A DNA stretch of 58,022 bases from the NCBI GenBank assembly GCA_016934715.1, contig JAFGSI010000021.1, forward strand, positions 1 to 58,022, given 5' to 3'. The translations under genes and the position numbers were made by a program. This document shows positions 23,639-26,012 of this stretch, piece by piece (positions within the stretch are counted from its first letter, which is position 1; each line of letters starts with the position of its first letter). The notes below the pieces were generated by a model. That model did not search any database, was not told the origin of the DNA, and saw nothing but the letters and a program-made list of their open reading frames with translations. The DNA is from Anaerolineales bacterium (GTDB lineage Bacteria > Chloroflexota > Anaerolineae > Anaerolineales > Villigracilaceae).

Positions 23639-23899
23639 TCAGCGGGGATCAATGACCATCTTGATTGCCGTACGCACCTTGCCATCAATTTCGACATCGA
23701 CGAACTCAGGCCGGCAAACGACATGAATTCCGTCGTTGTCAAGATAGCCAGTAGCCAGCACCAAAGCCTTGATCGCCTGATTTACTGCCCCTGCCCCGAT
23801 AGCCTGCACTTCCGCACGTTTGTGTTCGCGGACCACGCCCGCGATCGCCCCAGCCACAGCGGAGGTACGGGAGGTTGCGGACACCTTGATCATCTCCAT
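23639..23899 (-). CDS. spoVS: stage V sporulation protein S-like protein
   Basis: An 86-aa Alba-like small protein of the SpoVS family: MEMIKVSATSRTSAVAGAI, AIGAGAVNQAIKALVLA, GKVRTAIKMVI. In Bacillus it affects septation and sporulation; in non-sporulating relatives its role is unknown and may be nucleic-acid binding. It is a single gene with GAGGGAGA upstream of the ATG. It is the immediate left neighbour of the replication origin, transcribed away from it. Confidence 0.93.
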   Translation of the reverse strand: MEMIKVSATSRTSAVAGAIAGVVREHKRAEVQAIGAGAVNQAIKALVLATGYLDNDGIHVVCRPEFVDVEIDGKVRTAIKMVIDPR

Positions 23900-24011
23900 A
23901 GCATTTCTCCCTCGAGAACAACATCGATTTGAAAGGGGCCTCGTTCTCTCAAGAAGATTGTACTGTATTTGTTAATCCGTTTCAAGACACTTATTTTCTC
24001 TAAGGATATGT

Positions 24012-24050
24012 TAATAGTAGTCTTAGTAGGGCCTGTGGAAAAGTGGAAAA
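24012..24050 (-). other. DnaA box plus DnaA-trio (basal unwinding element)
   Basis: On the minus strand a near-box TTTTCCACT (24042-24050) abuts TTTTCCACA (24034-24042). A GC-rich 4-nt spacer GGCC follows, then six triplets CTA, CTA, AGA, CTA, CTA, TTA (24012-24029), then AT-rich DNA. This order (box, GC spacer, DnaA-trios, AT region) is the basal unwinding system described for Bacillus subtilis, where DnaA filaments open the duplex. Confidence 0.85.
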
Positions 24051-24220
24051 GCAGGCTGGGGCACCCGCACATCCCCAAGATGTGGGCCGGGCAGACGGCA
24101 GGCCACTGCATATGCTCCTTTCGGGTTGGAAAAAGATACACACCTGCTGTGGAAAGAGAGCGTGATCAAGCGGGGGCTTTTTTGGGCGCTTCGAAGCCAA
24201 AGCGCTATTTGGGATTGTCA

Positions 24221-24253
24221 AAGAAAAGACCCCCAGATGTGGGGGCCTTTTTT
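24221..24253. terminator. terminator inside the origin region
   Basis: CCCCC-AGATGT-GGGGG (24230-24245), with T-rich sequence on both sides (CCTTTTTT to the right; TCTTTTCTT on the minus strand). It likely ends transcripts of the nucleotidyltransferase gene coming leftward and keeps them out of the unwinding element. Confidence 0.7.
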
Positions 24254-24269
24254 AGAACAATTGCGCGGG

Positions 24270-24319
24270 TTCTCCACAGACCGCGCGAGTTATCCACAGT
24301 TTTAGGGCAGTTATCCACA
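24270..24319 (+). other. tandem DnaA boxes
   Basis: TTCTCCACA (24270-24278, one mismatch), TTATCCACA (24290-24298) and TTATCCACA (24311-24319), all in the same orientation at 20 and 21 bp steps, i.e. on one face of the helix. The last two match the E. coli R1-type consensus exactly. Confidence 0.88.
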
Positions 24320-24365
24320 GCCCGGACGGATCCCTGTCCAGGTCGGACCCCAAGATATGGGCTGC

Positions 24366-25361
24366 TCACAGGCCGTGTGCGGCGGCCATATTTTCGAGCA
24401 ACTCCTCGATGGTATCCAGAAAAGTATCCAGCCCGGCCAGGCGCTCTTCGAAGGGCTCGCCAGCCAGTTCGAGTTGGACGCAGGCCGCCAGCCATTTCGC
24501 CTGACGGGTGGCTGGCAGGACGGCCGCACACAGGGTCCAGGTGTGGAGCAGAGGCCACAGGATTGCCTGTGGACTTTCGCTGGAAAGCAGGGCCTCGAAG
24601 GCCAGTTTGTAGTAGTTCAGTCGTGCGGGATGGATGCGGGTTTCGATCTTCGGCCGGTCGGCAGCATCGACAAAGGCCGTCTCCCATTCGGAGACCAATG
24701 CTGCCAGCAGGGGGGCCTCGGCCTGGGGCGCGCCGAGCAGGATGAACAATTGGTCGATCAGTTCCGGGACCCCGGCTGACTCGGCCCGCCCGGGGAATTC
24801 CAGCAGGAAGCGCCGCTCGGCCAGCGGACCGCCGTTCAATACGGCAACGGCGTTGGCGGCGTGGTTGACGGCTTTCAAGTAGGTGAGCATCAGTTCTGGC
24901 CCGTTGGCGTCGCTGAGTTGCAGGTCGCTCCAGATCTGGCGGGCGTGGCTTGCATTGTGCCTCGAGCGGGCGATGACGTTGAACGGTTCGTCGAACTTGT
25001 CGCGCACCCCGGCCTGGACGAATTCGAGAAAGTGCTGGCTTTCGTAGAGCCACATCGGGTTGTACATCTCCGGACCAAGCCAGGGGTTCATGCGCAGTTC
25101 ACGCGGTCGCGTGAACTCGGCGCGCGAGTGATGGCAGATGTCGATGTGGATCTCGGGGGTGAGGGCCTCGATCTCACGACGGACCTCAGGCTGGCCGGGA
25201 TGGACCAGGACCAGGTCGATGTCGGTCGCGCCGGCCAGGAAGGGATCCTCCCTCAGCAGGGAGCCGGTCAGGTAGGCAGCGACCAGATCGGGGGTCGAGA
25301 GGTTTCGCTTCTGGACGGTCTCTTTGGCAATCCGGATGAGGAAGTCACGCGTGATGCGCAT
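24366..25361 (-). CDS. nucleotidyltransferase-domain protein
   Basis: A 331-aa soluble protein. The N-terminal ~100 residues carry a polymerase-beta-type nucleotidyltransferase signature: Gly33-Ser34 (LTGSLL) followed by Asp47 and Asp49 (TDIDLVLV). The remaining helical part (120-331) is unassigned. It could be an adenylyl/nucleotidyl transferase for a small molecule or protein. ATG 25361 is preceded by AAGGAG. It lies 9 nt after the deoxynucleoside kinase gene, so the two form an operon transcribed leftward toward the origin, ending at the terminator near 24230. Confidence 0.75.
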   Translation of the reverse strand: MRITRDFLIRIAKETVQKRNLSTPDLVAAYLTGSLLREDPFLAGATDIDLVLVHPGQPEVRREIEALTPEIHIDICHHSRAEFTRPRELRMNPWLGPEMYNPMWLYESQHFLEFVQAGVRDKFDEPFNVIARSRHNASHARQIWSDLQLSDANGPELMLTYLKAVNHAANAVAVLNGGPLAERRFLLEFPGRAESAGVPELIDQLFILLGAPQAEAPLLAALVSEWETAFVDAADRPKIETRIHPARLNYYKLAFEALLSSESPQAILWPLLHTWTLCAAVLPATRQAKWLAACVQLELAGEPFEERLAGLDTFLDTIEELLENMAAAHGL

Positions 25362-25370
25362 GGGTGCTCC

Positions 25371-26012
25371 TTAATCCCCGTCCATGGGCAGGCCTGGCTG
25401 GTAGGGGCTCAGGCCGAGGGCCTCTTGGATGCGGTTCTCGATTTGCTTGCGGTGCTCGGGGTGACGGACGAAGTCGAGTGGATCGGTGTCGATCACCAGC
25501 ACCGCTGTGTCGCCGTAGGGCTGCGAGAAGAACTCCTCATAGGTCTGGTTGAGGCTGGCGATGTACCCGCGGTCCATGTTGCGTTCGTAGGATCGGTCGC
25601 GCATGGCGATCCGCTGCATCAGGGTTTCGGTGCTGGCCCGCAGGTAGACGAGCAGATCGGGGAGGGTGATCTTCTCAGCCAAGGCCTCGTGGACCCGGAA
25701 GTACATGTCCAGCTCGTCTCCCTGCAGGTTGATGCGGGCGAAGAGGGCGTCCTTGGCGAAAGTGTAGTCGGAGATCAGGGACCGCCCGCCGGCCAGGATC
25801 TCGGAGACGGCGCGGCGCTGCTGATGGTAGCGGCTGAGCAGGAAGAAGATCTGGGTCTGGAAGGCGTAGCGCTCCCGGTCGGCATAGAAATCGGACAGGA
25901 AGGGGTTTTCCTCGAAGACCTCGAGCAGGATGTCCGCCTCAAAGCGGGACTGGAGCAGCCGGGCCAGGGTGGTCTTGCCGACGCCGATGACGCCTTCGAT
26001 GGCGATGTACAT
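25371..26012 (-). CDS. deoxynucleoside kinase (dGK/dAK family), copy 2
   Basis: A 213-aa kinase with P-loop GVIGVGKTT at 7-15, catalytic segment ISDYTFAKDALFA and lid RDRSYERNM. It is homologous to the kinase at 20994 but clearly divergent, e.g. SDYTF in place of QDRSVYED, so the substrate probably differs. GGAG precedes the ATG. It is the first gene of a two-gene leftward operon; the valS T-box promoter lies divergently about 80 bp away. Confidence 0.88.
   Translation of the reverse strand: MYIAIEGVIGVGKTTLARLLQSRFEADILLEVFEENPFLSDFYADRERYAFQTQIFFLLSRYHQQRRAVSEILAGGRSLISDYTFAKDALFARINLQGDELDMYFRVHEALAEKITLPDLLVYLRASTETLMQRIAMRDRSYERNMDRGYIASLNQTYEEFFSQPYGDTAVLVIDTDPLDFVRHPEHRKQIENRIQEALGLSPYQPGLPMDGD

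Follow-up and report, generated by a model that had tools for sequence, protein, structure and literature searches.

Where does this Anaerolineales bacterium (Chloroflexota) begin to copy its chromosome, when the DNA that most resembles a replication origin lies away from dnaA, and what would NrdR-type palindromes be doing inside that DNA? The window analysed here is an entire 58-kb contig of a 4.09-Mb genome assembled in 88 contigs, and the region 23950-24365 within it is very probably the oriC of the source genome. Our reading, to which we assign a probability of roughly 0.8, is that this region is an oriC with interleaved NrdR-type sites that may couple dNTP supply, DnaA supply and origin firing via one sensor. 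An earlier note on this DNA had proposed the origin and missed the NrdR-type boxes, whose presence inside it is the most interesting point of the locus.

The DnaA boxes cluster in non-coding DNA bounded by the start of spoVS and by the stop codon of the next gene, and we agree with the earlier note that no convincing gene lies between them; every element that it had listed is present where it had placed it. On the plus strand, a three-box array (24270-24319) is formed by the one-mismatch box TTCTCCACA (24270-24278) and two perfect copies of TTATCCACA (24290-24298 and 24311-24319), with starts 20 and 21 bp apart. Taken in minus-strand order, from right to left, the array boxes at 24311, 24290 and 24270 are followed by a middle DnaA box CTTTCCACA (24156-24148, minus strand), which has two consensus mismatches and, in most relatives with the array, a counterpart at a comparable position. 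Next come tandem minus-strand boxes (24050-24034), a GGCC spacer, DnaA-trios and AT-rich DNA. The tandem boxes are TTTTCCACT (24042-24050), which was absent from the earlier note, and TTTTCCACA (24034-24042), and they share one base. The GGCC (24030-24033, minus strand; most relatives also have a 4-nt spacer) leads into six trios, 5'-CTA CTA AGA CTA CTA TTA-3' (24012-24029, minus strand), spacer and trios together being the reverse complement of 24012-24033. These open onto an unstranded AT-rich DNA unwinding element (23950-24011), the GC content of 23950-24029 being 30% against 61.4% for the window. The boxes, short spacer and at least three trios in register by which we recognise a basal unwinding system (BUS) are all found here, and both the DnaA-trio reading and the proposed opening toward spoVS are supported as far as sequence can tell. 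Among family origins with room for it, the BUS pattern with a [CT]TA start is found in 24 of 25, against 0.03 expected per scan, with at least one of these matches (L035) looking spurious.

The arrangement resembles the BUS of Bacillus subtilis (DnaA-boxes 6 and 7 with DnaA-trios) in its tandem boxes, GC spacer of about 4 bp, CTA (3'-GAT-5') trios and AT-rich DNA (PMC8287927). Tandem boxes are reported for 57% of predicted BUS in that article, whose main text does not contain the term 'Chloroflex'. Unlike the B. subtilis system, the present origin is not beside dnaA and has NrdR-type sites between its loading array and its BUS.

The gene beside the unwinding end is spoVS (23642-23899, minus strand; SpoVS, PF04232, Pfam E 4.9e-34), which was found in 31 of 41 genomes. 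Its likely promoter, TTGAAA-N17-TACAAT (23958-23987, minus strand), lies at the edge of the AT-rich stretch, and a similar CTTGAA...TACAAT arrangement was seen by eye upstream of spoVS in many relatives. Of the neighbouring genes, SpoVS and both deoxynucleoside kinases stand on Pfam matches, including the kinase at 25371-26012 (dNK, PF01712, minus strand, E 5.2e-41). The conserved gene adjoining the array (24366-25361, minus strand), which the note had called a nucleotidyltransferase (NTase), has a product with no Pfam or NCBIfam match at E<=0.001. Among the 26 family loci examined, an NTase homologue lies beside the array in 19 and spoVS in 18, spoVS being not seen within the examined flank in 8. 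The distance from array to spoVS varies from 292 to 760 bp across relatives; the 760 bp of one genome (G008, locus L019), compared with about 420 bp, goes with extra DNA between BUS and spoVS, and its origin geometry is kept.

The number of DnaA boxes does not mark this window, since one-mismatch boxes across the 58 kb show no clear excess (8 against 4.9 expected, with at least 8 in 14 of 100 shuffles). It is their clustering and arrangement in the region that is unusual and far from chance. Of the 15 copies of the perfect 9-mer across the 4.09 Mb of the genome, two stand 21 bp apart here; one other such pair exists, on contig C46. The C46 cluster (79385-79435 of that contig; L005:9386-9436) has three DnaA boxes 21 bp apart, two perfect and one TTATACACA, and is possibly a DnaA titration or regulatory site. 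We rejected it as an origin, as it has no NrdR pair of at least 10 bits and no trio was seen. The existence of this second, similarly spaced cluster, together with the location of our region away from dnaA, would be expected if our region were itself a DnaA titration or reactivation site of the datA/DARS kind and not an origin. We consider this highly improbable, given that the region combines a complete BUS and AT-rich DNA with a turning point in strand skew, that the same module lies beside dnaA in other families, and that no NrdR pair of at least 10 bits was found, and no trio seen, in the C46 cluster.

The earlier note had named cumulative skew as a check on the origin, and the outcome favours it. 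Within the window, cumulative GC skew drops to a minimum at about 21.8-24 kb and rises beyond it. For three relatives in single contigs, skews were sampled and not computed in full (40 stretches for G010 and 20 each for G383 and G247). In G010, T-A skew reaches its minimum at 535 kb, with the array located at 505.6 kb; on keto skew the fraction of the range is 0.002 for the array and 0.79 for dnaA (3.07 Mb), the keto minimum itself being at 905 kb in a flat stretch. The GC skew minimum of this genome, at 1.06 Mb, is also flat, with the array at 0.1 and dnaA at 0.865. None of 2000 segment shuffles reached its T-A or keto amplitude, and 14 reached that of GC. On keto skew, array and dnaA lie at 0.01 and 0.375 of the range in G383, where the minimum is 60 kb from the array, and at 0.041 and 0.567 in G247, where the minimum at 735 kb is 179 kb from the array at 556 kb; these keto amplitudes were reached by 0 and 1 of 2000 shuffles, respectively. 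On GC skew the arrays lie at 0.109 (G383) and 0.076 (G247), and the T-A skew of G383 fails to separate array (0.016) from dnaA (0.036). The module is therefore near the sampled keto bottom in all three relatives and dnaA is not; agreement is best on keto skew and less exact on GC skew, with the source genome itself in 88 contigs.

Conservation of the boxes in relatives, on which the earlier note had also staked its proposal, holds as well. Of the 396 genomes of the class, 173 contain a three-box array with 21/20 spacing and no more than three mismatches; none contains the reversed control pattern. In the family, 40 of 42 genomes searched have the array, which is missing in G022 and G023. Boxes, BUS, skew turn and conservation all support the oriC reading, as well as the separation from dnaA that had been proposed with it. 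In all 40 array-bearing family genomes dnaA is on another contig (36 genomes) or at least 0.6 Mb away (G010, G149, G247 and G383). The dnaA gene of the source genome is on contig C29 (18 kb), where the only one-mismatch DnaA box sits 9.3 kb from dnaA. We considered a dnaA-adjacent origin in this genome and rejected it, since its dnaA locus has no perfect DnaA box, as is the case for 25 of 30 scored dnaA loci. Of 14 array-bearing genomes from the order's other families, 8 have the array and the DnaA domain no more than about 1.5 kb apart. In other orders it follows dnaA by 0.13-0.5 kb (to the protein-match end) in 11 of 17 loci examined, these 17 coming from four families, out of about 140 array-bearing genomes of those orders; in our own family 26 of the 40 array-bearing genomes were examined at the locus level. 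An array far from dnaA in this family and near it elsewhere indicates that the same module is dnaA-linked in other lineages and has been parted from dnaA here, and the origin module has been kept intact across the whole family despite this separation.

NrdR is a repressor of ribonucleotide reductase (RNR), and the oriC holds 16-bp palindromes of CCCCCATATATGGGGG type that match its operator. Between the array and the middle DnaA box is box I, CCCCCAGATGTGGGGG (24230-24245; 19.0 bits), the top single match in the window. Its partner at 24200-24215 is degenerate in the source genome (-3.4 bits), which counts against our proposal there. Pair II lies between the middle box and the BUS, with boxes at 24073-24088 (10.8 bits) and 24103-24118 (4.7 bits), 30 bp apart, and a distal box, CCCCAAGATATGGGCT (24348-24363; 13.6 bits), lies beyond the array; none of these palindromes is assigned a strand. 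At least 12 of the 14 fixed letters of CCCCCANATNTGGGGG are matched in 14 of 16 spoVS-linked origins and in 0 of 14 array-less regions upstream of spoVS. The shorter exact site CCCCANATNTGGGG has from 0 to 4 copies in each of 29 genomes and 9 in G247; only G024 has the control pattern. Several of the 9 palindromes of G247 lie, by eye, inside a shared repeat element (L252-L258), and this genome was for that reason left out of the tally of sites; its exact site at 556101 coincides with its array. The 44 exact sites of the other 29 genomes fall at the array (17), before dnaA (12, about 640-700 bp ahead of the DnaA AAA domain), before nrdR (3) and elsewhere (12). In the source genome an exact site (C31:31738) precedes nrdR by about 65 bp, a class II-type RNR gene following; G036 also has one at its nrdR-RNR locus, and in G033 one lies 420 bp before nrdR. 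Some other regulator as the reader of the palindromes was set aside once the same site had appeared before nrdR.

A matrix was built from 54 boxes of the 27 readable among 30 nrdR loci, its consensus being CCCCCATATATGGGGG. The best pair is spaced by 30-32 bp in 25 of these 27 promoters (28-33 allowed), and the nrdR promoter pair of the source genome, at 32.5 bits, bears the same motif as its origin. Applied to origins, this nrdR-promoter matrix finds pairs of at least 12 bits with a 30-32-bp spacing in 25 of the 26 origins of the family. Outside the family it does so in 22 of 36, made up of 3 of 6 in the sister family, 8 of 13 in the order's remaining families and 11 of 17 in other orders; the 14 without such a pair include the remaining 3 of the sister family. 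In 800 kb of G010 there are exactly two pairs of at least 12 bits, both in its oriC (30.9 and 13.9 bits). In our own window the sole pair of at least 10 bits is 24073/24103 (15.6 bits), in the origin, where three of the four top single boxes also fall. The source genome has the two-box arrangement in pair II and has it in pair I with the degenerate partner. Another strong NrdR-type pair of this genome (26.1 bits; L246:2812-2858, near position 16812 of contig C35) lies between a hisS-like gene, so recognised by eye, and a DUF58 gene.

Because a consensus derived from oriC had guided the choice of training boxes, a bias was possible and was checked by a de novo motif and by a control on the picking. 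A palindromic motif found de novo in the nrdR regions, CCCCACATATGTGGGG, is shifted in register by about one base. The 12-bit level is reached with it by 23 of the 26 family origins and by 22 of the 36 others; of 2317 background tiles, from which the oriC tiles of G010 had been left out, 22 reach it. Under this motif, the spacing of the top two nrdR boxes falls at 30-32 bp in only 13 of 27 regions and at 28-33 bp in 26. In the picking control, 17 of 24 matches were reached by 26 of 27 nrdR regions and by 1 of 300 random stretches. Scrambled matrices found on average 1.06 of 26 family origins and 0.71 of 36 others; single scrambles reached 22 and 18, and some of these high-scoring scrambles probably leave the motif nearly unchanged.

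With any spacing from 18 to 45 bp allowed, pairs were most frequent at 30 bp (32 of 62 origins) and 31 bp (27 of 62), with 11 at 32 bp and no more than 8 at any other spacing. Relative to the array start, boxes of at least 10 bits lie at -44, -54/55, -66 or -76 on one side and at 74-75, 83-86 or 94-96 on the other, with five at 115-136, mostly partners, and further boxes from 200 to 282 in looser steps. The box offsets thus hold helical phase to the DnaA array, their jumps being mostly of about one helical turn; the Rayleigh p-values for this phase take no account of how the genomes are related and should not be read as probabilities. Among the 30 origins in which both pair II and a BUS box occur, 28 have them 22-24 or 33-35 bp apart. 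The two outlying distances (46 and 49), apparently due to a second, wrong BUS candidate, were kept in the count. Fixed phase and distance are what would be expected if a bound protein must face the DnaA complex in a set way.

This geometry bears on two other explanations of the palindromes. Box I, a perfect palindrome rich in GC, comes after both the array and the stop codon of the upstream gene. Flanked by T-runs, it could double as a terminator; the region might then be an oriC whose palindromes are intrinsic terminators or hairpins of upstream genes, unrelated to NrdR. Such an account appears improbable to us, because a motif learned only from nrdR promoters detects the boxes, often with a second box 30-31 bp away, because their offsets run in helical turns relative to both array and BUS, and because they occur whether NTase, dnaA or another gene lies upstream. 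It is somewhat less unlikely, though still doubtful, that the NrdR boxes are real and control a neighbouring gene (spoVS, the kinase operon, or an adjacent dnaA and its neighbours) and not the origin. To our knowledge NrdR is known only as a transcriptional repressor, and the flanking deoxynucleoside kinases would be sensible targets for it. The boxes, however, sit behind the kinase and NTase genes and not before them, the neighbours differ among families, and the DnaA-box and BUS geometry stays in register while the distance to spoVS changes more than twofold.

We prefer to read the palindromes as NrdR sites belonging to the origin itself. NrdR is encoded in 39 of 41 genomes, the source genome included, above the TIGR00244 cut-off, and the NrdR of the source genome has a zinc ribbon and an ATP-cone and aligns with solved NrdR structures. 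Rodionov and Gelfand, in the original NrdR-box paper of 2005, reportedly gave the consensus acaCwAtATaTwGtgt and predicted some replication genes as NrdR targets. Other NrdRs that have been studied sense dATP and ATP and need dATP plus ATP to bind, and an NrdR tetramer holds two boxes, kinks DNA by about 90 degrees per box and favours integer helix turns (PMC9110341, PMC12051234). All four NrdRs assayed in one report bound operators with 14-17-bp spacers, equal to 30-33 bp between starts, and for E. coli NrdR the binding to a single box was 530-1000-fold weaker (PMC12051234), which counts against box I with its degenerate partner in the source genome. The present sites resemble the operators of RNR promoters in Streptomyces, E. 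coli, Listeria and Streptococcus in being paired 16-bp palindromes about three helix turns apart. In published operators, GC pairs are highly conserved at box 1 positions 9 and 18 (PMC9110341), and C4 and G13 of our matrix are the same distance apart. The present sites differ from known operators in lying in oriC and not over a promoter, in their CCCC/GGGG flanks and in the protein that would read them. D15 and R17 appear to confer NrdR specificity, R17 being described for Streptomyces (PMC9110341). In the 28 readable of 30 Anaerolineales nrdR loci (L265-L294), NrdR has D at residue 15 and one of T, S, A, N, L or H, never R, at residue 17, a pattern that fits a shifted operator and goes along with the CCCC/GGGG flanks. 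In the RNR gene that follows nrdR in the source genome (L245:1-2110, cut by the locus end), two separated parts match RNR models with intein-type matches between them, and this gene probably holds an intein.

Boxes close to nrdR and dnaA lie before these genes, and at oriC no promoter is evident, by eye, at the boxes. Before dnaA, a box of at least 13 bits is present in 47 of 54 scored loci (24 of 30 and 23 of 24), which were drawn from a set of 65 genomes with the unreadable L056 left out, and a pair of at least 12 bits in only 23 of the 54 (16 and 7).

We propose that DnaA would load on the three-box array and spread via the middle box to the two BUS boxes, from which it would melt the AT-rich DNA toward spoVS along the DnaA-trios. 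The NrdR-type sites would be interposed at fixed helical phase, the middle box having one pair on its array side and another on its BUS side, and a single box lying past the array. At high dATP, NrdR carrying dATP and ATP would bind the oriC sites as a tetramer and kink the DNA, and this kink would alter the path between array and BUS and so change orisome assembly. As NrdR would also bind before dnaA and before nrdR-nrdJ, dNTP supply, DnaA supply and origin firing may share one sensor. The binding of DnaA and NrdR at oriC, its effect and its sign are all predictions from sequence. We lean, with some confidence, to the view that the NrdR of Anaerolineae is a dedicated origin-binding regulator whose dATP/ATP sensing gates initiation, such that RNR, dnaA and firing would form one regulon acting as a dNTP checkpoint. 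That NrdR brakes initiation at high dATP seems to us an even call, and likelier than a role as helper. The brake is favoured because NrdR binds at high dATP and would then repress dnaA too, and because raised dNTPs delay initiation in Caulobacter, by a mechanism called undefined in that 2025 report (PMC12186491). An IHF-like helping or licensing role, in which NrdR would fold the origin, is more tentative.

Two known regulators offer comparisons. IHF at the E. coli oriC is a DNA-bending protein that acts between the DnaA array and the unwinding site, and it is not a nucleotide sensor. NrdR likewise kinks DNA, and unlike IHF needs dATP plus ATP to bind (PMC9110341). CtrA at the Caulobacter oriC is also a non-DnaA regulator that links cell state to initiation (PMC12186491). 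CtrA is a response regulator that is phosphorylated; NrdR would be a direct reader of dATP/ATP, and we claim no sequence relation between the two. An origin built of DnaA boxes and BUS is a known type; in the open-licence literature searched we found no description of NrdR boxes in oriC, and phased NrdR operators that form part of oriC are apparently undescribed within that literature. If the proposal is true, it suggests that nucleotide supply is wired directly into the decision to start DNA copying. Here a genome sequence names both a candidate dNTP sensor and its sites inside oriC, and dNTP feedback on initiation becomes testable.

The combination of array, NrdR pairs and BUS may also serve as a marker for origins in fragmentary Anaerolineae genomes. 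We also scored 24 dnaA loci from other Chloroflexota classes: none has a pair at its box cluster, and a single pair lies elsewhere (L361); NrdR boxes at the origin are thus so far a trait of Anaerolineae, as scored with the matrix of this lineage only. Extra dnaA copies are suggested in several genomes of these other classes (G470, G478, G445, G454, G462, G428, G440, G449 and G465), each of which has two to three strong DnaA-domain matches (E 3e-60 or better).
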